Source of the DNA: Chelativorans sp. J32 | Lineage (GTDB): Bacteria; Pseudomonadota; Alphaproteobacteria; Rhizobiales; Rhizobiaceae | DNA length: 64,000 nucleotides | NCBI RefSeq assembly: GCF_000518985.1 | Contig: NZ_JAEQ01000003.1 | Location: forward strand, 248,001 to 312,000 | Reading direction: 5' to 3' | In this document: positions 4,314 through 44,716 of the stretch, one piece after another | Position numbering within the stretch: the stretch's first letter is position 1 | Layout: each line of letters starts with the position of its first letter | Translations under genes and position numbers: made by a program | Notes under the pieces: model-generated | Told to the model about the DNA's origin: nothing | Databases searched by the model: none | The model's input: the letters and a program-made list of their open reading frames with translations, nothing else

Positions 4314-6356
4314 CTATTCAGCCGACGGAACGTTGAGGGTGGCCCCTATGACGAGCCGCCTAGGCCGCAATTGCGGATTGGCTTCGGCGAGCTTCCGCCA
4401 TTGCATCGGGTCACCATAGAATTCCTGCGCGAGGTCCCAGAGCGTATCGCCCGCGGCGATGACATGTGTGGTGGCAGCCTCTCGGGCTTCAGCCGCGCCG
4501 GCATCCGGAGTTGCGGCCGCTGTTTGCGTGCCGGTAGGCGGATTGGCCGGGGCTTCAGCGGCAGGCGGAGTGGCGCCCGCAGCTTCGCCCGAAGCTTCTG
4601 CGCCGGCGCTGGGTGCCGTTGGCTCGGCGTTCGCACCGCTCTCGCCCGATGTAGGCGGCTGCTGAGCCGGTTCACTGGGTGCCACGGCTTCGCCCGGCGG
4701 CTGTGCCGCGGGCGCTTCGGCCGCCGGTGCTTGTGCCGCAGCTGCGGCGGAAGCCTCGGTTATGCGGCCATCTGTATAGGGCTTGTAGGGGTTGTTGGCC
4801 GCCAGATAATCGGCAAGCACCTGTTCGAGCCCGGGGCCGTAATCATAAGCGTTCTGGCCCTTTTCCTTGAAAAGGCTGTAGCCGTCGCCGCCATTGCGCA
4901 TGAAATTGTTGGTGGCGATTGTATACGTGGCGTTGGCATCGATCGGCGTCCATCCGCCATCCGCCGTCTGCACTTGAACGTCGCTGATCCGGCCTTGACC
5001 GGCAGGTGCAGACTTGTCGAGTGTGTATCGCAGGCCGGAAACTTGCGGGAAGCGGCCAGCGCCTTCCTCGATCTGGCTGACGCCGCCTTCGAGCGCTGCG
5101 ACAACATCCGACCCCTTGAGCTGGAACGTCGCAAGCGTGTTCTGGAAGGGGAGCACTTCCAGCACTTCGCCCATCGTGACCTCGCCGGCATCTATCGAGG
5201 CGCGCAGGCCCCCGCCATTGGTGATGGCGAACTGGACGCCCTGGTCCTTGGTGCGGGCGAGCATCGCATCGGCCACCAGATTGCCCATCTGGCACTCACC
5301 GGCGCGGCAGGTATCGCGGCTTCCGTCAATCGCGGCAGAGGTTTCCGACACCACCTTGGCTTTCAATTCCTCGATGGGGCCGCCAAGTTCCTTCACCCGT
5401 GCCAGGACGGCTTCGTCCGGCTTGACCTTCGCATCGAGCAGCTTCGGCTCGCCGGAAGCCTCCTTGACCACGCCGGAATCGTCGAAGACGACCTTCAGGT
5501 CGCCAAGATATTTCGAATAGGAGGCGGCCTGAACCACAGGCACCTTGTAGCCTTCGGGATTGTCCACCATCGTGGGGTAGGGTCCCTCGGCACCTTCGGC
5601 GCTGTTGGAGAGCAGGGTGTGGCTATGGCCGCCCACCACCACGTCCACGCCGGGAATCTTGGCGATGGCCTCCAGGTCGCGCGGGTAGCCGACATGGGTG
5701 AGGGCGATGATCTTGTTCACGCCCTGGTCCTGCACGGCTTTCACCGCGGCGGTGATGCCTTCGACATCCTCGATGATGGAGACGCTCTCGCCGGGGGAGG
5801 AGAGTTCGGCCGTGTCGTTCGCCACGGCGCCGACGATTCCGACCTTCTCACCACCCACGTCGAGGATCACATATTCCTTGACGCGGTCGCCAAGCTTGGA
5901 TGCTTCCGTGGCCTTCACATTGGAGCCGAGCACGGGGAACTCGACCTTTTCGAGGAAGGCGGCCAGGCCATCCTCGCCATCGTCGAACTCGTGATTGCCG
6001 ACCACCATGGCGTCGGTCTTCATCAGATTCAGGAACTCGGCTTCCACCGTGCCCTTGTAGGTGGTGTAGAAGAGAGAGCCTTGGAAATTGTCCCCGGCAT
6101 TGAGCAGGATCACATTCTGCCCCTGGAGCGCATCGCGTGCATCATTGACGGCGGTCACGAGGCGAGCCGCGCCGCCAAAGCACTTCCCCGCCGTCTCATC
6201 CTCGTCCGAACAGGTGGATTCGAATGCGTTGATGGACTGGATGCGGCTGTGCCAGTCGTTGAAGTGCAGGATATTCAGGGTGTAGTCGGCGAAAGAAGGC
6301 GCGGCGGAAAGCGCCAGGGTCGATGCACCCAGCGCAAGGACAGCAAAGCTCTTCAT
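4314..6356 (-). CDS. 5'-nucleotidase/metallophosphatase with C-terminal LysM domain
   Basis: A 680-residue exported enzyme. A signal peptide (MKSFAVLALGASTLALSAAPSFA) precedes a calcineurin-like metallophosphatase domain (about 24-290) with ILHFNDWHSR, GDNFQG, GNHEFDDG and GGHSHTLL metal-ligand motifs. A 5'-nucleotidase C-terminal domain follows (about 330-500; ITNGGGLRASID, TNNFMRNGGDGY). A linker of about 100 residues rich in Ala, Pro and Glu then leads to a terminal LysM domain (HVIAAGDTLWDLAQEFYGDP). It probably dephosphorylates nucleotides or related phosphoesters in the periplasm while LysM binds peptidoglycan. The start chosen has GGGGAG upstream; a start 20 codons earlier would spoil the signal peptide. 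The LysM tail is not usual for UshA-type enzymes. Confidence 0.92.
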   Translation of the reverse strand: MKSFAVLALGASTLALSAAPSFADYTLNILHFNDWHSRIQSINAFESTCSDEDETAGKCFGGAARLVTAVNDARDALQGQNVILLNAGDNFQGSLFYTTYKGTVEAEFLNLMKTDAMVVGNHEFDDGEDGLAAFLEKVEFPVLGSNVKATEASKLGDRVKEYVILDVGGEKVGIVGAVANDTAELSSPGESVSIIEDVEGITAAVKAVQDQGVNKIIALTHVGYPRDLEAIAKIPGVDVVVGGHSHTLLSNSAEGAEGPYPTMVDNPEGYKVPVVQAASYSKYLGDLKVVFDDSGVVKEASGEPKLLDAKVKPDEAVLARVKELGGPIEELKAKVVSETSAAIDGSRDTCRAGECQMGNLVADAMLARTKDQGVQFAITNGGGLRASIDAGEVTMGEVLEVLPFQNTLATFQLKGSDVVAALEGGVSQIEEGAGRFPQVSGLRYTLDKSAPAGQGRISDVQVQTADGGWTPIDANATYTIATNNFMRNGGDGYSLFKEKGQNAYDYGPGLEQVLADYLAANNPYKPYTDGRITEASAAAAAQAPAAEAPAAQPPGEAVAPSEPAQQPPTSGESGANAEPTAPSAGAEASGEAAGATPPAAEAPANPPTGTQTAAATPDAGAAEAREAATTHVIAAGDTLWDLAQEFYGDPMQWRKLAEANPQLRPRRLVIGATLNVPSAE

Positions 6357-19990: not shown

Positions 19991-20683
19991 ATGAGCGAGG
20001 CGGAAGTCGAAATACTCCTGCTTTCGGCCAAGGTGGCGCTGGCTGCCATGGCCTTCTCCATCGTTCCTGCCTTCGTCGTCGCCTGGCTGCTCGCGCGAGG
20101 GCGGTTTTCCGGCAAATCCCTTCTGCAGGCTGTGGTGACGCTGCCCCTCGTGCTGCCTCCGGTCGTCACCGGCTATGGACTGCTTGTCCTTTTCGGTTCG
20201 CGCGGGCCGCTGGGCCGCCTGCTGGAGGAGATGTTCGGCGTCAGTTTCGCTTTCCGCTGGTCGGGCGCGGCGCTTGCTGCGGGGGTGATGGCCTTTCCGC
20301 TGCTTGTGCGGCCCATCCGGCTTTCGCTTGAATCCGTCGACCGGGGGCTCGAAGAAGCGGCCTCGACGCTTGGCGCCTGGTCGCCCGTCGTCTTCCTCAC
20401 GGTCACCTTGCCGCTCGCCCTGCCGGGGTTGCTTGCCGGCCTCGTGCTCGGCTTTGCCAAGGCACTTGGCGAATTCGGCGCCACCATCACCTTCGTGTCG
20501 AACATCCCTGGACAGACACAGACGCTGTCGCTTGCGATTTATGCGCTGATGCAGAGCCCGGAAGGCGATGCTGCGGCGCTGAGGCTGATCGGGCTTTCCA
20601 TCATCCTTGCCATTGGGGCCGTGATCCTTTCGGAATGGATCGCCAAGCGTTTGCAAAAGAGGGGCGGGAATGGAAGAGCTTGA
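19991..20683 (+). CDS. modB: Molybdate ABC transporter permease
   Basis: A 230-residue inner-membrane permease with about five helices. The ABC-permease coupling loop is visible as EEAASTLGAWSPVVFLTVTLPLALPGL, followed by GFAKALGEFGATITFVSNIPGQTQTL, a diagnostic ModB segment. AAGGAAGG stands upstream of the chosen ATG; the open frame 17 codons further upstream is unlikely. Its end overlaps the start of modC by 14 bases, so translation is probably coupled. Confidence 0.94.
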   Translation: MSEAEVEILLLSAKVALAAMAFSIVPAFVVAWLLARGRFSGKSLLQAVVTLPLVLPPVVTGYGLLVLFGSRGPLGRLLEEMFGVSFAFRWSGAALAAGVMAFPLLVRPIRLSLESVDRGLEEAASTLGAWSPVVFLTVTLPLALPGLLAGLVLGFAKALGEFGATITFVSNIPGQTQTLSLAIYALMQSPEGDAAALRLIGLSIILAIGAVILSEWIAKRLQKRGGNGRA

Positions 20684-33698: not shown

Positions 33699-34619
33699 TC
33701 AAAACTGATAGCGGCGCAGCCGCGTCTGGATGGCGAAGAGATAGAGGCAGACGCCTGCCAGGATGATGAAGAACATCATGGAGGCGATTGTCGCCCCCAT
33801 ATTCGGATCGCCGATCTGCAGCTGGAAACCGAAAAAGGTGCGGTAAAGGAACGTGCCCAAAATGTCCGTCGAGAAATTCGGGCCCGCAAGTGCGCCCTGG
33901 CTCGAATAGATCAGGTCGAAGGCGTTGAAGTTGCCGACGAAAGTGAGCACCGAAATAATGCCGATCGAGGGCAGGATAAGCGGCAGCTTGATCTTCCAGA
34001 ACTGCGCCATTCCGGTGATGCCGTCGCATTCGGCCGCTTCCAGGATCTCGTCGGGTATGGAAAGCAGCGCTGCGTAGATCAGCATCATGGGAATGCCCAC
34101 GAACTGCCAGACGGAAATAAGCCCGAGCGTCGTCAGCGCATATTCCTCCTTGCCAAGCCAGGGAGCAAACAGGCTCTTCAAGCCGACAAGATCGAGCAGG
34201 CCCGGCGCGACGCCCCAAATGGGACTGAGGAGCAGTTTCCATACGAAGCCGACTATGACGAAGGAGAGAATGGTCGGCACGAAGATCGCCGTGCGGTAGA
34301 AGCCGCGCAGGCGCAGGCGCGGATTGGACAGGAGGGCGGCGAGCAGGATGCCAATAGGGTTCTGCACCAGCATGTGGATGATAAAGAACCAGACATTGTT
34401 CCACAGTGCGTTCCAGAAGCTCGAAGACCAGCGGGGATCGCCGAGAAGTGTCCGGAAATTCTCCAGCCCGACGAAAACCTGTCCCCCCGAGGTACCGCGG
34501 AACAGCGAAAGCTGAAGCGTGCCGAAAAGCGGCAGGATCATCACGATGGTATAAACGAGAAGCGCCGGCGCCAGGAACACGGCGATGTGCCAGCGGATCG
34601 GCCTTTTGTGCGCTAGCAT
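33699..34619 (-). CDS. Carbohydrate ABC transporter permease (MalF type)
   Basis: A 306-residue permease with six to seven helices and the EAA loop as EAAECDGITGMAQFWKIKLPLILPSI. The N-terminal VFLAPALLVYTIVMILPLFGTLQLSLF is typical of MalF-like CUT1 subunits. It pairs with the downstream MalG-type subunit. A 290-base gap with a palindromic repeat separates it from the binding-protein gene upstream, a common site for mRNA processing that leaves the binding protein more abundant. Confidence 0.93.
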   Translation of the reverse strand: MLAHKRPIRWHIAVFLAPALLVYTIVMILPLFGTLQLSLFRGTSGGQVFVGLENFRTLLGDPRWSSSFWNALWNNVWFFIIHMLVQNPIGILLAALLSNPRLRLRGFYRTAIFVPTILSFVIVGFVWKLLLSPIWGVAPGLLDLVGLKSLFAPWLGKEEYALTTLGLISVWQFVGIPMMLIYAALLSIPDEILEAAECDGITGMAQFWKIKLPLILPSIGIISVLTFVGNFNAFDLIYSSQGALAGPNFSTDILGTFLYRTFFGFQLQIGDPNMGATIASMMFFIILAGVCLYLFAIQTRLRRYQF

Positions 34620-34680
34620 GAGTTACGCCCGGTTAAGCCCAACTGGTTGTCCCATCCGCGTTCACCACCCCTCTCTTACA

Positions 34681-34869
34681 TTCCAAGGACTTAGCTTTGC
34701 TAAGCCCAGGAATTGTTTCTCCCGGCCAAGGGGAGATAAGGCGCGCCGCGCGGTCGCTACTGCAAATCGCCAACATTGGTGATTGTCGGCAAAAGCCCGA
34801 TGCGGCGCATCTCCCCCTGACGGGGGAGAAAGAGATCACAACGCCCTAGCCGAAAGCTAAGTGTTGGAA
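34681..34869. repeat. Palindromic intergenic repeat with terminal inverted repeats
   Basis: A 189-base element inside the sugar-importer operon. Its ends are inverted copies, TTCCAAGGACTTAGCTTT (34681-34698) and, on the other strand, TTCCAACACTTAGCTTT (34853-34869). A second inner inverted pair begins TTTCTCCC and ends GGAGAT (34716-34737 and 34809-34831). The layout is that of a non-coding rhizobial palindromic repeat or MITE. On RNA it would fold into one long hairpin, probably modulating read-through from the binding-protein gene. No target-site duplication was established. Confidence 0.6.
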
Positions 34870-34909
34870 ATCGCAAGAGAGGGACTGATTGGCTCCCGAT
34901 CGCGAATTC

Positions 34910-36178
34910 TCAATTCCCCTGCTGCGGCTTGTACCAGCTCGCCAGTCCCTCCTGCAGCCGCTCTGCCGCTGCCTCCGGCGTCTCTGTTCCATTGATCACG
35001 TTAGCCGACGCCGTCCAGGTCTCGTTTTCGAGATTGGGCGTGCCACGGGACAGGATCTGATAGGTAGAACGGATCGTAGGCTGGCACTTCTCGCGCCAGG
35101 AGACGAATTCCCGCGCCAGCGGATCTTCCATTTCGACGGGTTTCGAGGAAAGGCTGAAAAACCCGGGGAGCGCGTTGGCGTAAATCTTCGCGAATTCGTC
35201 GGAAGCCACCCATGTCAGGAATTTCTTTGCCGCCTCTGCATTCGGGCTCTTCGCGTTGAGGCCGATGCCGATATCCGTGTGATCGGAGATATAGCAGGTG
35301 TCACCGGCATTTTTGACCGGCGGCGGGAACGCACCCATCTCGAATTCGGCCTGGGTGTTGAAGACGGAGATCTCCCAGGAGCCGGCGGGATAGATCGCAG
35401 CGCGGCCAAGCGTAAAGAGGTTCTGGCTATCCGGATAGGTCTGCGCCTCGAATCCGTCGCCCAGATAGTCCTTCCAGCGCGCCAAGGTCCTGAACGGGTC
35501 GACCCACTGCGGGTCCGTCAGCTTTTGCTCGCCCTTTATGAGCGCCAGCCGGCCTTCCTCGCCCTTCCAATAATTCGGACCGATGTTCTGGTAGCCCATG
35601 GTTGCGGCTTCCCAGAGATCCTTGGTTCCCATGGCCATGGGAATGTAGTTGCCGTCTTCCTTGATCTTGTCGAGCAGGGCGAAGAACTCGTCCTCCGTCT
35701 GAGGCACCTGCAGCCCCAGCTCGTCAAAAGCGTCCTTGTTGTAGATGAAGCCATGGATGACGGAGGCCATGGGCACGCAGAAGGTCGCCGAACCGTCATC
35801 GGTCTGCCAGGCGGCCTTGGCCACATTGGAGAAGTTCTCCATGCCGGGAAGCTCGGTGAGATTCGCGAGCTGGCCCTTGTTAAAAAGTTCCAGAGAGGCA
35901 TCGAAGGGGCGGCATGTGATCAAGTCTCCCGCCGACCCCGCATCCAGCTTGGCGTTCAACGCCGCGTTGTACTCGGTCGGTGCGGAAGGAGAGAAGACGA
36001 CCTTGATGCCCGGATTCTGCGCCTCGAATGCAGGAATGAGCTGTTCCTGCCAGATGGCGAGATCGTCGTTGCGCCAGCTCTCGATGGTCAGCGTCACATC
36101 CTGTGCCGCGGCGATGCCTGCCGTCCCAACGAGCATGCTTGATGCCGCCAGAAACATCATCACCCTGTTCTGCTTCAT
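34910..36178 (-). CDS. Carbohydrate ABC transporter substrate-binding protein
   Basis: A 422-residue exported protein. The signal peptide MKQNRVMMFLAASSMLVGTAGIAAAQ is followed by VTLTIESWRNDDLAIWQEQLIPAFEAQNPGI in the usual family-1 binding-protein pattern, ending SWREKCQPTIRSTYQILSRG. GGGAGGAAG precedes the chosen ATG; an open frame 28 codons longer includes no better start. It is the first gene of the importer operon and is divergent from the kinase-like gene, so one regulatory region of about 315 bases serves both. Confidence 0.92.
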   Translation of the reverse strand: MKQNRVMMFLAASSMLVGTAGIAAAQDVTLTIESWRNDDLAIWQEQLIPAFEAQNPGIKVVFSPSAPTEYNAALNAKLDAGSAGDLITCRPFDASLELFNKGQLANLTELPGMENFSNVAKAAWQTDDGSATFCVPMASVIHGFIYNKDAFDELGLQVPQTEDEFFALLDKIKEDGNYIPMAMGTKDLWEAATMGYQNIGPNYWKGEEGRLALIKGEQKLTDPQWVDPFRTLARWKDYLGDGFEAQTYPDSQNLFTLGRAAIYPAGSWEISVFNTQAEFEMGAFPPPVKNAGDTCYISDHTDIGIGLNAKSPNAEAAKKFLTWVASDEFAKIYANALPGFFSLSSKPVEMEDPLAREFVSWREKCQPTIRSTYQILSRGTPNLENETWTASANVINGTETPEAAAERLQEGLASWYKPQQGN

Positions 36179-36493
36179 AACTTCCTCCCTCATGGCTTGG
36201 ACGCCTCTGTTCCTTCCTCCCGGGGGCGCCTCCAGAAACGCCGCATAAGCCAGCGATTGCATTCGTGGTCGGGCGGGATGGCCGTAAGTTCCTCAATATC
36301 ATTGGGAAAACGGCTACCCCAGCCCCGCCGCCTTCTACGCCTCTTACTTCCGGTTGCGGACATGTTAAGAACATTCCGCTGCGCTTTTCCAGCACCAAAA
36401 TTAAAGGATTGAGCAATATTGGCAGTTGGAGAATGCACGCGCGGGCCGGACGCGCACGCGCGCGCGTCATGGCTCAACGGTTGGGTGTGCACG
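36179..36493. promoter_or_regulatory. Divergent regulatory region between importer operon and kinase gene
   Basis: 315 bases without a gene, holding both promoters. Near the kinase side is an alternating purine/pyrimidine tract of 18 bases (36450-36467, mostly CG), which can adopt Z-DNA under supercoiling. No regulator gene is adjacent, and I could not assign an operator palindrome. Confidence 0.5.
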
Positions 36494-37354
36494 ATGAATC
36501 TCGTAGCTGTGGACGGCGGTGGGACCGGGTGCCGGGCGATCGTTGCCAATGCCGAGGGCGCGGTGCTTGGACGGGGCGAGAGCGGCCCTGCCAATGTGAT
36601 GACCGATCTCGACGGCTCCCTCACGCATATCCTAGAGGCCGTCGAAAGGGCGGGCAGGCAGGCGGGTATCGAACCGGAGTTCTCCACGTCCAAAGCCGCC
36701 CTGGCATTGGCCGGCGCCAATGTCGGGCGTTTCGGCGAGGAGTTGTTGCAGAAGCTGCCCTTCGCTGAAAGCATCGTGGAATCGGATGCAACAGCCGCGG
36801 TCCGCGGCGCTCTGGGCCCGCATGACGGGGCGGCCGGCATTCTCGGCACCGGTTCCGTGTTCGGGGCAAAGTCGGGTGGAGAAATCCGAATCATCGGCGG
36901 CTGGGGCTTTCTGCTGGGCGACCAGGCAAGCGGAGCAAGACTCGGCCGCGCTCTGCTTGAAGAGACCCTGCTTGCACATGACGGTATCGTTTTGGGTTCC
37001 GCGCTGACGGAAGCTATCCTTGCGCGTTTCCAGGAAGATCCTCGCGAGATCGTGGTGTTCGGAAAGCGCGCGCGCCCCGCGGATTTCGGCGCATTCGCGC
37101 CGGAGGTCTTCGCTTATGCCGAAAAGGGTGACGCGGTTGCCGGGAGAATTCTAGCCGACGCAGTGGGCTGGATCGAGGCTTCCCTCGATGCGGTGATGCC
37201 GGAGGGCTGCGATCGCGTTTGTCTACTCGGCGGACTCGGGCAGCCATACGCGCCTTATCTCAGCGAGCCTTTTAGGAACCTGCTTCGGCCACCGCTTGGG
37301 AATGCGCTCGACGGAGCGCTGGCGCTGGCAGTGGAAAAATTCGGGCAATCCTGA
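36494..37354 (+). CDS. BadF/BadG-family ATPase, N-acetylglucosamine-kinase-like
   Basis: A 286-residue ASKHA-fold kinase. The phosphate-1 motif is AVDGGGTGCRAIVANAEG, phosphate-2 GILGTGSVFGA and the adenosine-binding C-terminal segment VCLLGGLGQPYAPYL; ESDATAAVRGAL carries the catalytic aspartate. The family includes eukaryotic-type GlcNAc kinases and bacterial amino-sugar kinases. The start ATG at 36494 removes 25 residues of poorly conserved upstream frame. Being divergent from the sugar importer it probably phosphorylates the imported sugar, perhaps GlcNAc or a related amino sugar; this is inference from context. Confidence 0.82.
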   Translation: MNLVAVDGGGTGCRAIVANAEGAVLGRGESGPANVMTDLDGSLTHILEAVERAGRQAGIEPEFSTSKAALALAGANVGRFGEELLQKLPFAESIVESDATAAVRGALGPHDGAAGILGTGSVFGAKSGGEIRIIGGWGFLLGDQASGARLGRALLEETLLAHDGIVLGSALTEAILARFQEDPREIVVFGKRARPADFGAFAPEVFAYAEKGDAVAGRILADAVGWIEASLDAVMPEGCDRVCLLGGLGQPYAPYLSEPFRNLLRPPLGNALDGALALAVEKFGQS

Positions 37355-37427: not shown

Positions 37428-37458
37428 TTGACATGACTCCTGCTTGGGCTACTAGATA
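37428..37458 (+). promoter_or_regulatory. Candidate promoter of the riboswitch-nrdAB transcript
   Basis: TTGACA (37428-37433) matches a sigma-70 -35 box exactly. A weak -10, TAGATA, follows 19 bases later (37453-37458), which is longer than ideal; TACTAG at 16 bases is an alternative. It lies just upstream of the cobalamin riboswitch. Confidence 0.35.
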
Positions 37459-37465
37459 TAGCCAT

Positions 37466-37640
37466 CACGGTGCTGTCGAGTCCTAGGGTCGAGAGCTTAA
37501 GAGGGAAGCCGGTGAGAGGCCGGCGCTGCCCCCGCAACTGTAAGCAGCGAGTTGCCGTCGCGTAATGCCACTGGTGCTTTAAGGCGCTGGGAAGGCCTGA
37601 CGGCAGCGATGACCTGCGAGCCAGGAGACCTGCCGTGATC
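37466..37640 (+). ncRNA. Cobalamin (B12) riboswitch upstream of nrdA
   Basis: Contains the hallmark segments in order: GGGAAGCCGGTGAGAG, GCTGCCCCCGCAACTGTAAG (the conserved core, near 37527-37547) and the B12 box GCCAGGAGACCTGCC (near 37620-37634). The aptamer ends about 120 bases before the nrdA ATG. Known riboswitches of this class lower expression when adenosyl- or methyl-cobalamin is bound. The gene controlled here encodes a B12-independent ribonucleotide reductase, so the logic would be to make it when B12 is scarce. Confidence 0.93.
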
Positions 37641-37652
37641 GAGCTTTTGAAC

Positions 37653-37757
37653 GTCCACGGGCGGGGTGTCCCGGCGGTGCGCTTGATCGCGGCGGTTCAT
37701 ACCTGCTGCTGTCCGGCATGCTTCGCGAAACCCCGTCAACAACCACGGGGGTTTTTC
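37653..37757 (+). promoter_or_regulatory. Expression platform of the nrdA riboswitch with terminator-like/SD-sequestering hairpin
   Basis: Downstream of the aptamer, a 22-base segment (37653-37674) is identical to one after the metE riboswitch (42309-42330). Next to the start codon, CCCCGT (37731-37736) can pair with ACGGGG (37745-37750), and a run of five T follows; the G-rich 3' arm is also the only possible ribosome site for the ATG at 37758. It could therefore act as an intrinsic terminator or as a ribosome-site block. Which mechanism applies is inference. Confidence 0.55.
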
Positions 37758-40616
37758 ATGTCGGCGAGTGCCGCTCACTTTTCCAACGGAACGGCCGCGA
37801 TGCCGGTCCTTGCTCATCCGGCCGAAGTCCGAATGGAGTCCGCGTATCGCGTCATCCGTCGCAACGCTTCGGTCACGCCGTTCGATCCGGGCAAGATCAC
37901 CATCGCCTTGACCAAGGCTTTCCTTGCCGTCGAAGGTTCGGTGGCTGCCGGTAGCCGCCGTGTGCACGAGGTCGTGGAGGAACTGACGGAGCAAGTCGTT
38001 TCCGCGCTCACTCGCCGCGGCGAGGCGGGCCGTACCTTCCACATCGAGGAAATCCAGGATCAGGTGGAACTCGCCCTCATGCGCGGCGGCCATCACAAGG
38101 TGGCGCGTGCCTACGTGCTCTACCGCGAGGAGCGGGCGCGCGAGCGGCAGGCAAGCAGCGTCGCCGAGATCCCTCAGCCATCTTTGCACGTGACGCTGCA
38201 AGACGGCAGCAGGGCGCTCCTCGATGAGGCGCGGCTTGCCGCGATCGTGGTGGAGGCTTGCCACGGGCTGGAAGCGGTCTCGGCCGAGGCCATCCTCACC
38301 GAAGCGCGGCGCAACCTCTATGACGGCATCACGCTTGACGAGCTCTCGCTGGCGCCGATCCTTGCCGCGCGCACCTTGGTAGAGACCGAGCCGAATTATG
38401 CGCAGGTGAGCGCGCGGCTGCTTCTCGACAAGCTGCGCCGCGAAGCGTTGAGCTTCGTGGAAGGCAGGCCCGCACAGGCCACGCAGACGGAGATGGCCGA
38501 TCGCTATCCCGCCTATTTCGAAGCCTTCATCAAGGCAGGCATAGAGGCCGAGATGATCGACCCGGAGCTTGGGCGCTTCGATCTCAATAAGCTTGGAGCC
38601 TCGCTTCAGCCCGAGCGCGACCTACAGTTCCAGTATCTCGGTCTGCAAACGCTCTACGACCGCTATTTCCTGCACAAGGACGAGGTTCGTTTCGAACTGC
38701 CGCAGGCCTTCTTTATGCGCGTGGCGATGGGACTTGCGGTGCGCGAGATCGACCGGGAGGCTCGGGCGATCGAGTTCTACCAGCTCCTCTCCTCCTTCGA
38801 TTTCATGTGCTCGACGCCGACCCTCTTCAATGCCGGCACGCTGCGGCCGCAGCTTTCGTCCTGCTTTTTGACGACCGTTTCCGACGACCTCGACGGCATC
38901 TTTAAGGCCATCAAGGACAACGCGCTTCTGGCGAAATATTCCGGCGGGCTCGGCAATGACTGGACTCCGGTGCGGGGCCTGGGCGCGCGCATCAAGGGCA
39001 CCAACGGCAAGAGCCAAGGCATCGTGCCTTTCCTGAAGGTGGCAAACGATACGGCGATCGCAGTCAACCAGGGCGGCAAGCGCAAGGGCGCGGTCTGCGC
39101 CTATCTGGAAACCTGGCATATCGACATCGAGGAATTCCTGGACCTCAGGAAGAACACCGGCGACGACCGCCGCCGCACTCATGACATGAACACGGCCAAC
39201 TGGGTGCCGGATCTCTTCATGGAGAGGGTGGAAGCGGATGGCGAGTGGACTCTATTCTCGCCCGACGAGGCACCTGATCTGCATAACCTCTATGGCCCGG
39301 CTTTCAAGACCGCCTATGAGGCCTATGAAGCAAAGGCGGCGCGTGGAGAGATCCGTGTCTTCAAAAAGGTCCGTGCGGTGGAGCTGTGGCGGCGCATGCT
39401 CACCATGCTCTTCGAGACCGGCCATCCGTGGATCACTTTCAAGGACCCGTGCAACCTGCGCTCGCCGCAACAGCATGTGGGCGTGGTGCATTCGTCGAAC
39501 CTGTGCACCGAGATAACGCTGAACACGTCCAGCGATGAAGTCGCTGTGTGCAATCTCGGCTCCGTCAACCTTGCCGCTCATGTGAGCGAGAGTGGGCTCG
39601 ACCTGGAAAAGCTGGCACGTACGGTTTCCACCGCGATGCGCATGCTGGACAATGTCATCGACATCAATTTCTACACCATCCCCGAGGCGCGGCGCTCAAA
39701 CCTGCGCCACCGGCCGGTGGGCCTCGGCCTGATGGGCTTTCAGGACGCGCTGCAGGCGCTGAAGCTGCCTTATGCTTCGGAAGGAGCGGTGGAATTCGCC
39801 GACCGCAGCATGGAAGCTATCGCCTATCATGCCATCTCTGCCTCGGTGGAACTGGCAAAGGAGCGTGGAGCCTATGCAAGCTTCCAGGGCTCGCTCTGGT
39901 CGAAGGGCGTGCTGCCGATCGATTCCATTGGCTTCGTGGCCGAATCCCGCGGCGTCGAAGGCATGGATCGCAGCCAGACGCTCGATTGGGAGAGCCTGCG
40001 CAATCGCGTCATGGAGCATGGCATGCGCAATTCCAACACCATGGCGATCGCGCCGACGGCGACTATCTCCAATATCTGCGGCGTTTCGCAGTCGATCGAG
40101 CCCAGCTACCAGAACCTGTTCGTGAAATCGAACATGTCGGGCGACTTCACCGTGGTGAACGCCGCACTCGTGCGCGATCTCAAGGCGCGCGGTCTCTGGG
40201 ACGAGGTCATGGTTTCGGACCTCAAATATTATGATGGTTCTCTCGGTCAGATCGACCGTGTTCCGGATGACCTGAAGGCACTCTATGCGACCGCGTTCGA
40301 GATCGATCCGGCGTGGCTGATCGAGGCAGCCTCGCGCCGGCAGAAATGGATCGACCAGGCGCAGTCCCTCAATCTCTACATTGCCAATCCCTCCGGCAAG
40401 AAGCTCGATGAACTCTACCGGTTGGCCTGGAGGAAGGCGCTGAAGACCACTTACTACCTGCGCTCGCGCTCGGCGACCCATGTGGAGAAATCGACGCTGA
40501 AACGCTCGGACGGGAAACTCAATGCCGTGGCGGTGACACCGCAGCCGACTGCTTTCGAGTTGGATGGCGTGAAGGCTTGCGCCATCGACGATCCCGAATG
40601 CGAGGCTTGCCAGTAG
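37758..40616 (+). CDS. nrdA: Class I ribonucleotide reductase alpha subunit (class Ic-like partner)
   Basis: A 952-residue catalytic subunit reducing ribonucleoside diphosphates for DNA synthesis. Two ATP-cone-like domains occupy the N terminus (about 28-115, YRVIRRNASVTPFDPGKI; and about 137-235). The catalytic barrel carries QLSSCFLTTVSDD, the Asn-x-Cys-x-Glu active site SSNLCTEITLN, AVCNLGSVNLAAH and APTATISNICGVSQSIEPSYQN. The redox cysteines close the protein (DPECEACQ). The ATG after the riboswitch is chosen; the open frame runs back into the aptamer and is not translated. The extended N terminus resembles the Chlamydia-type alpha subunit, in keeping with nrdB next door. Confidence 0.95.
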   Translation: MSASAAHFSNGTAAMPVLAHPAEVRMESAYRVIRRNASVTPFDPGKITIALTKAFLAVEGSVAAGSRRVHEVVEELTEQVVSALTRRGEAGRTFHIEEIQDQVELALMRGGHHKVARAYVLYREERARERQASSVAEIPQPSLHVTLQDGSRALLDEARLAAIVVEACHGLEAVSAEAILTEARRNLYDGITLDELSLAPILAARTLVETEPNYAQVSARLLLDKLRREALSFVEGRPAQATQTEMADRYPAYFEAFIKAGIEAEMIDPELGRFDLNKLGASLQPERDLQFQYLGLQTLYDRYFLHKDEVRFELPQAFFMRVAMGLAVREIDREARAIEFYQLLSSFDFMCSTPTLFNAGTLRPQLSSCFLTTVSDDLDGIFKAIKDNALLAKYSGGLGNDWTPVRGLGARIKGTNGKSQGIVPFLKVANDTAIAVNQGGKRKGAVCAYLETWHIDIEEFLDLRKNTGDDRRRTHDMNTANWVPDLFMERVEADGEWTLFSPDEAPDLHNLYGPAFKTAYEAYEAKAARGEIRVFKKVRAVELWRRMLTMLFETGHPWITFKDPCNLRSPQQHVGVVHSSNLCTEITLNTSSDEVAVCNLGSVNLAAHVSESGLDLEKLARTVSTAMRMLDNVIDINFYTIPEARRSNLRHRPVGLGLMGFQDALQALKLPYASEGAVEFADRSMEAIAYHAISASVELAKERGAYASFQGSLWSKGVLPIDSIGFVAESRGVEGMDRSQTLDWESLRNRVMEHGMRNSNTMAIAPTATISNICGVSQSIEPSYQNLFVKSNMSGDFTVVNAALVRDLKARGLWDEVMVSDLKYYDGSLGQIDRVPDDLKALYATAFEIDPAWLIEAASRRQKWIDQAQSLNLYIANPSGKKLDELYRLAWRKALKTTYYLRSRSATHVEKSTLKRSDGKLNAVAVTPQPTAFELDGVKACAIDDPECEACQ

Positions 40617-40698
40617 GCGCGGCGGAGACCCTTACCGTCTCGGGCTCTGCCCGATTCACCTCTCCCATTTGAGACCGGAGCCGAGCTTTGCGGCTAAT

Positions 40699-40725
40699 CC
40701 CTCTCCCCAGCATAGCGGGAGAGGG
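40699..40725 (+). repeat. Intercistronic hairpin, rhizobial repeat-like
   Basis: A perfect 9-bp stem (CCCTCTCCC/GGGAGAGGG) with a 9-base loop lies in the 167-base gap between nrdA and nrdB. Similar CTCTCCCC...GGGAGAGG palindromes are widespread in rhizobial intergenic DNA. It may tune nrdB levels within the transcript. Confidence 0.5.
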
Positions 40726-40783
40726 TGCTGGGCATCAGCAAGGCGGCAACCGGATTATAAACCTATGATATCTGGAGAATGGC

Positions 40784-41896
40784 ATGCTGAACTGGAACGA
40801 GCCGAGCGCCAATCCTTCTCAAGCAGCACCCGCCGGCGAGGTTGATGCTACCGGCCTTGGTACCATCGACCGGGGTGCGGCGCGCGTATCGGTTGACGAC
40901 AAGCGCATGATCAATGCGCGGGCCGACGTGAACCAACTCCTGCCGCTGAAATATCGTTGGGCCTGGGAAAAATATCTGTCGGGCTGCAACAATCACTGGA
41001 TGCCGACGGAAGTTTCCATGCAGGCCGATATCGCGCTCTGGAAGTCCCCCGACGGGCTTACGGACGACGAACGGCGCATGGTGAAGCGCAATCTCGGCTT
41101 TTTCGCCGCCTCTGAGTCCTTGGTAGCGAACAATATCGTGCTCGCGATCTACCGCCATCTCACCAATCCGGAGTGCCGGCAGTATCTCCTGCGCCAGGCT
41201 TTCGAGGAGGCGGTGCACACGCACACTTTCCAATACATCGTGGAAAGCCTCGGCCTCGACGAGGGCGAGCTGTTCAACATGTATCGTGAGGTCCCGTCCA
41301 TCACCGACAAGGCGGCCTGGGCACTGGAATATACGCGCCATCTGGACGACCCGAATTTTTGCACCGGCACGCCGGAAGCAGACCGTGCTTTCCTGCGCGA
41401 CCTTGTCGCCTTCTACGTCGTCTTCGAGGGCATGTGGTTCTATACCGGCTTCGCGCAGATCCTGTCGCTCGGGCGGCGCAACAAGATGGTGGGGATCGCC
41501 GAGCAATACCAATACATCCTGCGCGACGAGTCGATTCATTTGAATTTCGGCATCGACGTCATCAACCAGATCAAGCATGAGAACCCGCATCTATGGACGC
41601 CCGCCTTCCAGGAAGAGGTGCGGGGCATGCTCCGGGATGCCGCGGAGCTGGAGGCAGCCTACGGCCACGACACGATGCCTCGCGGCTTCCTCGGCCTCAA
41701 TGCGGGGCTCTGCGAGAAATACATGCACTTCATCGCCAACCGTCGCTGTGCGCAGCTTGGCCTTGCGCCCGTGTTCGCCGAGACGGAGAACCCGTTCCCC
41801 TGGATGTCCGAGGCGATGGACCTGAAGAAGGAGAAGAACTTCTTCGAAACGCGCGTGATCGAATACCAGAATGGCGGCGCGCTCAGCTGGGATTGA
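40784..41896 (+). CDS. nrdB: Ribonucleotide reductase beta subunit, class Ic-like (Phe at radical site)
   Basis: A 370-residue metal-cofactor subunit. Candidate ligands are Glu111 (FFAASESL), Glu142 and His145 (EEAVHTHTF), Glu215 (VVFEGMW), Glu249 and His252 ([10 protein letters not shown]). The residue at the tyrosyl-radical position is Phe149, not Tyr. Every one of these positions is exactly 22 higher than the Chlamydia trachomatis class Ic ligands and Phe127, which hold a Mn/Fe cofactor instead of a diiron-tyrosyl radical. The sequence VHTHTF itself is Chlamydia-like. Cofactor use is inferred. The ATG follows TCTGGAGA. It shares the B12-controlled transcript with nrdA. Confidence 0.93.
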
Positions 41897-41995: not shown

Positions 41996-42094
41996 GGTCT
42001 CTTGACTCCTGATCCCGCTTGAGGGACTTTGCCCATGTCGTGGTTCCCCGACGTTCGCGCGTCGGGGCGAAGAGGGAATTCGGTGCGCCGCTAC

Positions 42095-42305
42095 AGCGGT
42101 GCGTTCTTCGAGACGCACAACTGTGGGGCTTATGTAATCGCGCTACCTGAAACCGATTCCGGTTTTCAGGAGCGGATGCACTGGCAATGCCGAAGCTGCC
42201 CCCGCAACTGTAAGCGGCGAGCCTTTCTCCAACATGCCACTGGGACATCCCGGGAAGGCGGAGAGGGCGATGACCCGCGAGCCAGGAGACCTGCCACGGC
42301 ATGAG
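42095..42305 (+). ncRNA. Cobalamin (B12) riboswitch upstream of metE
   Basis: The conserved core GCTGCCCCCGCAACTGTAAG lies near 42194-42214, followed by GCCACTGGGACATCCCGGGAAGGC in pieces typical of the peripheral stem, and the B12 box GCCAGGAGACCTGCC near 42281-42296. The 5' boundary is set at the GGTGC motif. B12 riboswitches ahead of metE are well known: with B12 present, cells use MetH and shut metE off. Confidence 0.93.
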
Positions 42306-42308
42306 AAT

Positions 42309-42400
42309 GTCCACGGGCGGGGTGTCCCGGTGGCTGCTGGGCGAGCCTGTCTCGCCCAAGCGTCCGCGTGCCCATGCCCCCAATCCAAGGGGTCAGATCC
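42309..42400 (+). promoter_or_regulatory. Expression platform of the metE riboswitch
   Basis: The first 22 bases (42309-42330) are identical to 37653-37674 after the nrdA riboswitch and can fold into a short hairpin. Near the start codon, a C-run (42377-42381) can pair with the AAGGGG ribosome site (42387-42392), suggesting translational control. No T run is present, in contrast to the nrdA leader. Confidence 0.5.
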
Positions 42401-44716
42401 ATGTTCCAAATACCTGTTGCTACGCTCGGTTTGCCGCGCATCGGCCGGCGACGCGAACTCAAATTCGCGCTGGAGGACTACTGGGCCGGTAAGAGCTCGG
42501 AGGCGGAGCTTCTTGCCACAGCCGCGAAGATACGCGCCGAGAACTGGAGCCTGCAAAAGGCAGCAGGCGCCAGTGTCATTCCGTCCAACGACTTTTCTCT
42601 TTACGACCACGTGCTTGACATGGCGGTGACCGTCGGGGCGATTCCCGAAATCTACGGCTGGGATGGCGGCGCCGTGCCGCTTGAGCTTTATTTCGCCATG
42701 GCGCGCGGCAGTCAGGGCAGCGAAGACGAATGCTGTCATTTGCACAACGGCGGAACCGGGGTGCCGGCGCTGGAAATGACGAAATGGTTCGACACCAATT
42801 ATCATTACATGGTGCCTGAATTCTCAGCCGATCAGCAGTTCCGGCTGGCGTCTACAAAGGCGGTTGACGAATTCAGGGAGGCAAGGGAGCAGGGTTTCCA
42901 TACGCGGCCGGTGCTGCTTGGGCCCGTTTCCTTTCTGAAGCTCGGCAAGCGCAAGGACGGCGGTGATCCGCTTTCGCTGCTGCCGCGGCTGGTTCCGGTC
43001 TATGCCGATCTGCTCAAGCGGCTGGCCCAAGCCGGAGCCGACTGGGTGCAGATGGACGAGCCTTGCCTCGTGCTCGATCTTACGGAAGAGGAGCAGCAGG
43101 CCTATAGGTTCGCCTATGACGCCTTGGCTGCGGCGCGTGCGCCGAAACTGATGCTTGCTACCTATTTCGGGGCGCTCGGGGACAATCTGCCGACCGTGGC
43201 GGCCCTCCCCGTAGCAGGGATCCACGTGGATCTCGTTCGCGCGCCTGAACAAATCGGCAGCCTGGTGGGTGCGATACCGGAGGATCGGATCCTCTCGCTC
43301 GGTGTGGTGGATGGGCGCAACGTCTGGCGCACGGATATCGCCCCGCTTCTCGACCGGCTGGAGCTTTTGGCAAAGGACAATCCCGGACGGTTTCAACTCG
43401 CGCCATCCTGCTCGCTGCTTCATGTGCCCTTCGATCTGGGCCTCGAAACCGGCCTTGATCCGGAACTGAAGAGTTGGCTTGCCTTCGCGGTCCAACGAAT
43501 TGAAGAACTCGCGGTTATCTCGCACGCGCTTTCGGTCGATCGCGCGAATGTCAGCTCCTTCATCGCGGCGGCTTCGCGGGCGCTTTCGGTGCGTGCTTCC
43601 TCTCCCCGCGTGCACGACGCCCGCGTTGCTGGCCGGCTTGCCGAGGTCTCACCGACGATGACGCGGCGCTCCCTGCCATTTGCCGAGCGCCGAAGGTTGC
43701 AGCAGGAAAAGCTGGCGTTGCCCGCCTTCCCGACGACGACCATCGGCTCCTTCCCCCAGACGGCGGAGGTGCGCAGGGCGCGTGCAGCCTATTCCAGGGG
43801 AGAACTGAAGCCAGCCGATTACGACACCTTCCTCAAGAGCGAGACGGACAAAGCCATCCGGTGGCAGGAGGAAATCGGGCTCGACGTGCTCGTGCACGGC
43901 GAGTTCGAGCGGAACGATATGGTGCAGTATTTCGGCGAGCAGCTGACGGGTTTTGCCTTCACCAAGCAGAGCTGGGTGCAAAGCTATGGCTCGCGCTGTG
44001 TCCGCCCGCCCATCATCTTCGGCGATGTCCACAGACCACAGGCGATGACAGTCGAGTGGGCTAGCTATGCTCAGTCGCTCACGGATAAGCCGGTGAAGGG
44101 CATGCTCACCGGGCCGATCACGATGCTCCAATGGTCTTTCGTGCGTGATGATGCGCCGCGTGAAACGGTCTGCCGGCAGATCGCGCTCGCGCTCCGCGAT
44201 GAGGTCCAAGATTTGGAGGAGGCCGGCATAGGCATCATCCAGATCGACGAGCCCGCCTTGCGTGAGGGATTGCCGCTGCGCAAAGCCGACAGGTCTGCCT
44301 ATCTCGACTGGGCGGTGGAGTGTTTTCGCCTTGCTTCGGCCGGCGTGAAGCCGGAAACGCAGATCCACACCCATATGTGTTACGCCGAGTTCAATGAGAT
44401 CATCGATGCGATCGCGGCAATGGACGCCGATGTCATCTCTATCGAAACATCGCGATCCAGAATGGAGCTTCTGCAGGCGTTCCGCGCTTTTCGTTATCCC
44501 AACGACATCGGGCCAGGCGTTTTCGACATCCATTCGCCTCGCGTGCCGCCTGCGGAGGAGATGACAAACCTGTTGCGCAAGGCAGGTGAAGGGCTCCGCT
44601 CCAGCCAGATCTGGGTCAATCCCGATTGCGGCCTAAAGACCCGCAAATGGGAGGAGGTGCGCCCCGCACTCGCCAATATGGTGGCAGCGGCGCGCCAGAT
44701 GCGAGTGGTGCAATAG
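42401..44716 (+). CDS. metE: Cobalamin-independent methionine synthase
   Basis: A 771-residue enzyme transferring the methyl group of 5-methyltetrahydropteroyl-triglutamate to homocysteine. The N-terminal barrel begins VATLGLPRIGRRRELKFALEDYW; the C-terminal barrel has TTTIGSFPQTAEVRRAR and the zinc site: His and Cys in IHTHMCYAEFNEI and the distal Cys in NPDCGLKTRKW. AAGGGG precedes the chosen ATG; eleven codons of open frame upstream are ignored. Regulation by the cobalamin riboswitch directly upstream is expected, and possibly by a SahR-type palindrome. Confidence 0.96.
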   Translation: MFQIPVATLGLPRIGRRRELKFALEDYWAGKSSEAELLATAAKIRAENWSLQKAAGASVIPSNDFSLYDHVLDMAVTVGAIPEIYGWDGGAVPLELYFAMARGSQGSEDECCHLHNGGTGVPALEMTKWFDTNYHYMVPEFSADQQFRLASTKAVDEFREAREQGFHTRPVLLGPVSFLKLGKRKDGGDPLSLLPRLVPVYADLLKRLAQAGADWVQMDEPCLVLDLTEEEQQAYRFAYDALAAARAPKLMLATYFGALGDNLPTVAALPVAGIHVDLVRAPEQIGSLVGAIPEDRILSLGVVDGRNVWRTDIAPLLDRLELLAKDNPGRFQLAPSCSLLHVPFDLGLETGLDPELKSWLAFAVQRIEELAVISHALSVDRANVSSFIAAASRALSVRASSPRVHDARVAGRLAEVSPTMTRRSLPFAERRRLQQEKLALPAFPTTTIGSFPQTAEVRRARAAYSRGELKPADYDTFLKSETDKAIRWQEEIGLDVLVHGEFERNDMVQYFGEQLTGFAFTKQSWVQSYGSRCVRPPIIFGDVHRPQAMTVEWASYAQSLTDKPVKGMLTGPITMLQWSFVRDDAPRETVCRQIALALRDEVQDLEEAGIGIIQIDEPALREGLPLRKADRSAYLDWAVECFRLASAGVKPETQIHTHMCYAEFNEIIDAIAAMDADVISIETSRSRMELLQAFRAFRYPNDIGPGVFDIHSPRVPPAEEMTNLLRKAGEGLRSSQIWVNPDCGLKTRKWEEVRPALANMVAAARQMRVVQ

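Follow-up and report, generated by a model that had tools for sequence, protein, structure and literature searches.

The window analysed here, a stretch of 64,000 nucleotides from Chelativorans sp. J32, carries on its forward strand a cobalamin riboswitch aptamer (37451–37651), followed by nrdA (37758–40616), which encodes a class I ribonucleotide reductase large subunit, and nrdB (40784–41896), which encodes a class Ic-type R2. These genes are directly adjoined, on the same strand, by a second cobalamin aptamer (42024–42312) and by metE (42368–44716), the gene for cobalamin-independent methionine synthase. Just upstream of the nrdA riboswitch, within positions 33699–37354, lie a GlcNAc-kinase-like gene (171 bits against a cut-off of 370), a frame that looks by eye like a permease (33699–34619) and a gene for a carbohydrate ABC binding protein (34910–36262), whose matches to binders of the GlcNAc/diacetylchitobiose type are weak. 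Elsewhere in the window, two minus-strand neighbours, a speF leader (RF00518, 26088–26234, 82.4 bits) and the sRNA ar45 (RF02347, 26243–26388, 163.3 bits), lie eight bases apart.

The aptamer of nrdAB was matched to RF00174 by Rfam cmscan with a score of 131.1 bits (E = 1.1e-32; gathering score 31.5) over model positions 1–189, which correspond to the full length, its sequence and structure together exceeding the curated score. A covariance model made in the present analysis, R1, scored 137.8 bits at 37499–37634, this value being in-sample. The end of the aptamer is separated from nrdA by 106 bases. A previous sequence-only reading of this DNA had placed a cobalamin aptamer directly upstream of nrdA-nrdB, and the Rfam match bears this out; the start that it gave, 37466, falls 15 bases within the aptamer. 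The RF00174 score and the conservation of the element among relatives rule out a chance aptamer or pseudo-riboswitch.

NrdA matched PRK07207 (NCBIfam, 1717 bits) and contains the Pfam domains PF02867, PF00317 and PF03477, with one ATP-cone detected; its coordinates assume an ATG start, and the listed open reading frame opens at GTG 37635. NrdB matched PRK07209 (NCBIfam, 679 bits) and was aligned to PDB 1syy which, like 4d8f, we take to be the class Ic R2 of Chlamydia trachomatis. Residues E111, E142, H145, F149, E215, E249 and H252, read directly from the translation, align to E89, E120, H123, F127, E193, E227 and H230 of the chlamydial protein. The protein thus carries six metal ligands with Glu as the first, and Phe instead of Tyr at the radical position (codon 41228–41230, forward strand, hand-computed from the start of the reading frame), a signature that we abbreviate as EEHFEEH. 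The sequence-only reading had named Phe149 and proposed a constant offset of 22 residues for the six ligands and this Phe; both statements hold, the latter at all seven positions, and the alignment check that it called for returned Phe and not Tyr at the radical site. Residues W72, Y244, D248 and Y361 match the radical-transfer residues W51, Y222, D226 and Y338 of C. trachomatis, the offset being 21 at W51 and 23 at Y338 because of single-residue indels. Judged from these residues, the cofactor of NrdAB is most likely Mn/Fe.

We considered as close relatives the best 80 of 585 confirmed NrdB matches in genome contigs, which are 85–94% identical to the window NrdB in their best segment. All 80 carry the complete EEHFEEH set; together with the tree described below, in which EEHFEEH sequences form one group, this rules out that Phe149 is an isolated substitution in an otherwise class Ia protein.

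Of the 47 Phe-type rows in a first tree, 38 went into the careful tree, alongside 41 Tyr-type PRK07209 rows and 6 outgroup rows. With the two diagnostic columns removed, the 38 Phe-type rows, which include the window, C. trachomatis, Saccharopolyspora erythraea, haloarchaea, alphaproteobacteria and the proteobacterial locus L138, fell on one side of one branch, so that EEHFEEH needs a single state change. This group was recovered in 88% of 200 bootstrap trees, with a branch support of 90/59, short of the customary 95/80; its SH-aLRT value was 99 in a quick tree from which the diagnostic columns had not been removed. Common descent of the window NrdB with the C. trachomatis R2 is thus moderately supported by the sequences. 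The careful tree agrees with a sequence network in which, according to PMC8463856, Ic-like metal-binding motifs and Ia-like homologues occur in one cluster.

These data also bear on a rival view in which NrdB, although Phe-type in its sequence, employs another cofactor in vivo (Fe/Fe or Mn/Mn), class Ic then denoting ancestry and not chemistry. The chlamydial R2 is only 59% identical to the window NrdB, and it is the protein to which the class Ic cofactor work refers in the literature searched, as far as the accessible text of PMC8463856 goes. In addition, a search of the genome for an Nramp-type Mn importer, limited to Nramp, gave no match, which we count against the Mn/Fe mechanism. Given, however, that NrdB agrees with the C. 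trachomatis protein in all six ligands, Glu at the first position included, in the Phe and in the W/Y/D/Y transfer residues, and that the signature requires one change on the tree, we regard another cofactor as quite unlikely and retain Mn/Fe as the preferred assignment.

We then turned to the association between the switch and the cofactor type. Six of the 80 closest relatives end inside nrdA and were excluded; among the 74 that reach past it, a cobalamin element lies just upstream of nrdA in 73, as detected with a fuzzy motif and the covariance model. The exception, Pseudochelatococcus lubricantis (L083), carries an RF00174 element at another place in the locus. The same locus carries a Mn2+ riboswitch (RF00080, 52.2 bits, 20342–20508, minus strand) about 9 kb past nrdB. 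The pairing of riboswitch and class Ic-type enzyme, which the sequence-only reading had considered unusual, is therefore routine in the closest relatives of the window NrdB within these best 80 of 585 matches. The claim of rarity is further undercut by a second sample of 120 R2 loci, hand-chosen and not random, from two Pseudomonadota searches. Here 7 loci are EEHFEEH, 111 DEHYEEH and 2 EEHYEEH, Asp being the first ligand in 111 of the 113 non-Phe loci. The element lies upstream of nrdA in six of the seven Phe-type loci (L138 being without it) and in no fewer than 14 of the 113 Tyr-type loci (L140, L141, L142, L144, L145, L146, L190, L191, L193, L194, L195, L196, L198 and L199), whose R2 proteins are 21–39% identical to the window NrdB. 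The Tyr-type counts are lower bounds, since R1 missed L140 and L141, both found by Rfam, which was run on 26 fetched loci besides the window; it detected no element in eight other Tyr-type loci (L093, L104, L109, L127, L139, L148, L149 and L197). Sixteen of the 120 loci have no NrdA frame, and an element before nrdA could thus not be judged there. The cobalamin switch therefore occurs with quite different class I reductases, and a class Ic-specific riboswitch was rejected, as Tyr-type loci bear the same aptamer family.

Phe-type genes on plasmids were seen both with the element, in alphaproteobacteria (L208, L209 and L217), and without it, as judged by motif search and model R1 alone, in haloarchaea (L212, L213 and L214). 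The proteobacterial loci L138 and L083, both Phe-type, have no element before nrdAB either. Riboswitch and cofactor type are thus separable traits. One could nevertheless suppose that a dedicated functional connection, wiring the status of B12 to that of Mn, and not shared descent, joins the two: both occur in 73 of 74 close relatives and in 6 of 7 Phe-type loci of the chosen sample. This we consider very unlikely, in view of the five Phe-type loci that have no element before nrdAB and of the Tyr-type loci that do; moreover, the element-bearing Phe-type rows all belong to one 32-row subgroup of the tree (100/94), so that their number is not independent evidence. Shared descent is hence the reading that we keep for the pairing, whose breadth, as predicted from sequence, is new in the present work.

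Several loci deserve a separate mention. A contig filed as viral (L218; IMG/VR IMGVR_UViG_3300017645_000005) has a Phe-type nrdB (5001–6107) 89% identical to that of the window and a riboswitch (1793–1996, 131.2 bits) about 3 kb upstream, at the expected start of nrdA; it could be host DNA. On plasmid pREC2 of Acaryochloris marina (L211), a cobalamin riboswitch (515–659, 57.4 bits) precedes a Tyr-type nrdAB by some 900 bases; a hypothetical gene lies between the two, and DUF1636 and cobW genes come after nrdAB. The alphaproteobacterial loci L148 and L149 combine Glu as the first ligand with Tyr at the radical site (EEHYEEH) and fall outside the Phe-type group. Lastly, seven loci from four genomes (L087–L092 and L100) have no NrdA frame within about 6 kb upstream of their PRK07209 nrdB, and three of these genomes have two such nrdB genes each.

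The leader between aptamer and nrdA was analyzed in 74 sequences including the window, of which 71 were usable (L008 and L082, with no Shine-Dalgarno-like start, and L086, which was mis-placed, were left out) and 63 were left once near-copies had been removed. Just 3' of the aptamer lies a conserved G-rich element, GGGCGGGGTGTCC (37659–37671, forward strand), present with at most one mismatch in 69 of the 71 leaders and a candidate, by its inferred role, for an anti-sequester or regulatory-hairpin element. Further on, a candidate hairpin, ACCCCGT...ACGGGGGT (37730–37752, forward strand), would pair away the G-rich Shine-Dalgarno sequence of nrdA. Base pairing between the G-rich element and the 5' C-rich arm of this start-codon hairpin is possible, the duplex amounting to -15.0 kcal/mol in the window, which suggests a simple model with an anti-sequester state in the absence of B12 and a sequester state in its presence.

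A Shine-Dalgarno stem of at least 5 bp was found in all 63 non-redundant leaders (shuffles: mean 52.1, maximum 58) and one at 6 bp in 45 (mean 34.7, maximum 44); the 28 leaders with 7 bp or more fall within the shuffles (mean 18.7, maximum 29). The excess above shuffles is therefore modest. In a subset of 16 leaders, hand-picked for the CCCCGT/ACGGGG type, the share of cells that pair is 90.2%, a value equally high in 4 of 500 shuffles, and the covariation score exceeds all 500 shuffles; of the five measures by which covariation in this subset was judged, two, namely pairs changed on both sides and further pair types, were not above shuffles (123 and 87 of 500, respectively). RNAalifold over all 63 leaders gave no consensus pair, and the fold of the window leader (37640–37790) is not more stable than that of shuffles (z 0.05). 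We count these last results, the loss of the excess at 7 bp or more and the two null covariation measures against the hairpin model. An earlier stem statistic based on poorly chosen start codons had given a real mean of 16.8 versus 15.8 for shuffles, 33% of which reached the real mean.

In the window, the hairpin is directly followed by a run of five T (37752–37756), as would be expected if the riboswitch acted by Rho-independent termination and not by sequestration of the Shine-Dalgarno sequence. A run of four or more T is nonetheless present in only 4 of the 63 leaders, window included, and all 63 share the stem of 5 bp or longer that covers the Shine-Dalgarno sequence, which makes termination unlikely. 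We thus favour control of translation, with the G-rich element and the hairpin as a shared candidate expression platform, a new element of the present work.

A similar arrangement precedes metE. The second aptamer (RF00174, 135.9 bits), which was absent from the sequence-only reading, is followed by an exact match to GGGCGGGGTGTCC (42315–42327, forward strand) and by a CCCCC/GGGG hairpin (42377–42392) ahead of an ATG at 42401, both hairpin and start having been read by eye; this ATG is a more likely start for metE than the listed GTG at 42368. The metE product matched NF003556 (1150 bits) and TIGR01371 (1105.9 bits).

The genome to which the window belongs (4.70 Mb in 45 contigs, rated 100% complete) encodes a single class I large subunit, a single R2 (one PF00268 match) and one class II NrdJ (NF005736, 2371.9 bits, cut-off 1737), as well as MetH (1749.5 bits), whereas a search for NrdD gave no match. 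The class II enzyme that the sequence-only reading had presumed to lie elsewhere was thus found, and both B12-independent isozymes, NrdAB and MetE, have their B12-dependent partner in the same genome. Scoring of 150 of the 375 first-look candidates in the genome yielded three RF00174 elements, before nrdAB, metE and a gene for a TonB-dependent receptor. The best NCBIfam match of the latter is a B12 receptor (246.4 bits, below the cut-off of 599.7), and it is followed by ABC-import genes, one of them best matching BtuC, all below curated cut-offs. Judging by these genes, the three switches would constitute one coherent regulon comprising two B12-independent isozymes and an importer. Of the markers of B12 synthesis, CobN had no match in the genome and CobM none above cut-off, the best candidate being a 546-residue frame (158.6 bits versus 259.65) that we take, provisionally, for a putative siroheme-synthase-type methyltransferase. 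Since neither marker was found, Chelativorans sp. J32 is probably a B12 auxotroph that imports the vitamin.

Among the relatives, NrdJ scored above cut-off in 38 of the 39 genomes searched, out of the 80 loci. The exception, Erythrobacter tepidarius (L018), has kept the riboswitch and a Phe-type nrdAB, which counts against the backup mechanism; its B12-dependent partner may have been lost, or nrdAB recently gained. A second NrdA-like frame is present in this organism. NrdJ alone does not predict which genomes carry nrdAB, as it is also above cut-off in 23 of 24 genomes of family- or order-level relatives that were selected because they showed no PRK07209 match above cut-off. CobM, in turn, is above cut-off in 26 of 46 genomes with Phe-type nrdAB versus 22 of these 24 without (Fisher p 0.0027, uncorrected for kinship and selection). 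The 46 genomes were picked through the window NrdB and share ancestry, so that this contrast is a lead and not a test. In three nrdAB-bearing genomes (G335, G428 and G431) CobN is above cut-off but CobM is not, indicating that single markers of B12 synthesis are imperfect.

From the parts observed at the locus, their conservation and the partner genes, we infer the ligand response, the direction of control, the anti-sequester pairing and the identity of the metals. When adenosylcobalamin is plentiful, the riboswitch would repress nrdAB, and NrdJ would make the deoxyribonucleotides. When cobalamin is scarce, the aptamer would be empty and the Shine-Dalgarno hairpin by the nrdA start would be opened, the G-rich element after the aptamer taking up the C-rich arm of the hairpin. 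The opened leader would then allow synthesis of an oxygen-dependent class I reductase, an enzyme that works independently of B12 and, to judge by its residues, most likely employs a Mn/Fe cofactor. The same low-cobalamin signal would also derepress MetE, as a backup for MetH, and the B12-import cluster. That low B12 derepresses a B12-independent reductase standing behind NrdJ had already been proposed in the sequence-only reading, and remains likely in the light of the aptamer, the class Ic-type NrdB, NrdJ, the single R2 and the lack of an NrdD match; it is the supposed rarity of the combination that did not survive the comparison with 74 relatives. As a whole, a B12-riboswitch-repressed Mn/Fe NrdAB that backs up NrdJ is the best explanation of the data, and one that we hold with considerable confidence.

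We put forward more tentatively, as a possibility, that the riboswitch-controlled NrdAB enzymes found in these alphaproteobacteria, and perhaps also the prototype from Streptomyces, are of the class Ic Mn/Fe kind. If so, B12 limitation would commonly swap a cobalt-based for a manganese/iron-based ribonucleotide reductase, and bacteria unable to make B12 would depend on this exchange. Class Ic reductases, as predicted from sequence, are not confined to Chlamydia, and among the nearest relatives of this NrdB they would be routine backups linked to B12 riboswitches. Culturable genera among these relatives (Ancylobacter, Xanthobacter and Nitratireductor) could serve as easy systems for the study of a Mn/Fe reductase in vivo, and are suited to asking whether cells exchange cobalt for manganese/iron chemistry at B12 exhaustion. 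It also seems advisable to re-read, at the radical residue, the class Ia labels of riboswitch-controlled nrdAB, that of Streptomyces included.

The kind of system described here is known. Rodionov and colleagues reportedly predicted, in 2003, B12 elements before B12-independent isozymes in many bacteria. NrdB proteins of the gammaproteobacterial type belong to the same NCBIfam family, PRK07209, and are 60–68% identical to that of the window (46 sampled loci), but all 46 carry Asp and Tyr in the two diagnostic columns; no cobalamin element was found by R1, which misses some, in these 46 loci, or by Rfam in the five that were run. Pseudomonas and Acinetobacter are among the plasmid matches to PRK07209 NrdB. 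The R2 of C. trachomatis shares all ligands, the Phe and the radical-transfer residues with the window NrdB and lies on the same side of the tree, the difference being one of overall identity, as given above. Closer in sequence is the R2 of S. erythraea (PDB 6y2n, which we take to be this protein), which is Phe-type, carries EEHFEEH and is 86% identical to the window NrdB although the organism belongs to the Actinomycetota, a figure that hints at inter-phylum transfer of the Phe-type R2. The organism is named as an R2 source in PMC7467353.

In the open-access literature searched, within the accessible portions of PMC9936198, PMC4428469, PMC6754362, PMC2667541, PMC6759758, PMC4465626 and PMC8123684, among others, no paper joins a riboswitch with a class Ic enzyme, and the cofactor class of the enzyme in this clade seems not to be spelled out there. 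The nearest counterpart is the nrdABS operon of Streptomyces, which PMC4991794, citing Borovok 2006, describes as controlled by a B12 riboswitch with NrdJ as partner; NrdAB is called class Ia there, and a backup role when AdoCbl is lacking is suggested. S. coelicolor likewise has a cobalamin riboswitch before nrdAB and NrdJ in the same genome, but its operon includes nrdS and the enzyme is printed as class Ia, whereas in the window a riboswitch-bearing metE comes next. By analogy, the logic of the locus in Chelativorans would be that of Streptomyces nrdABS.
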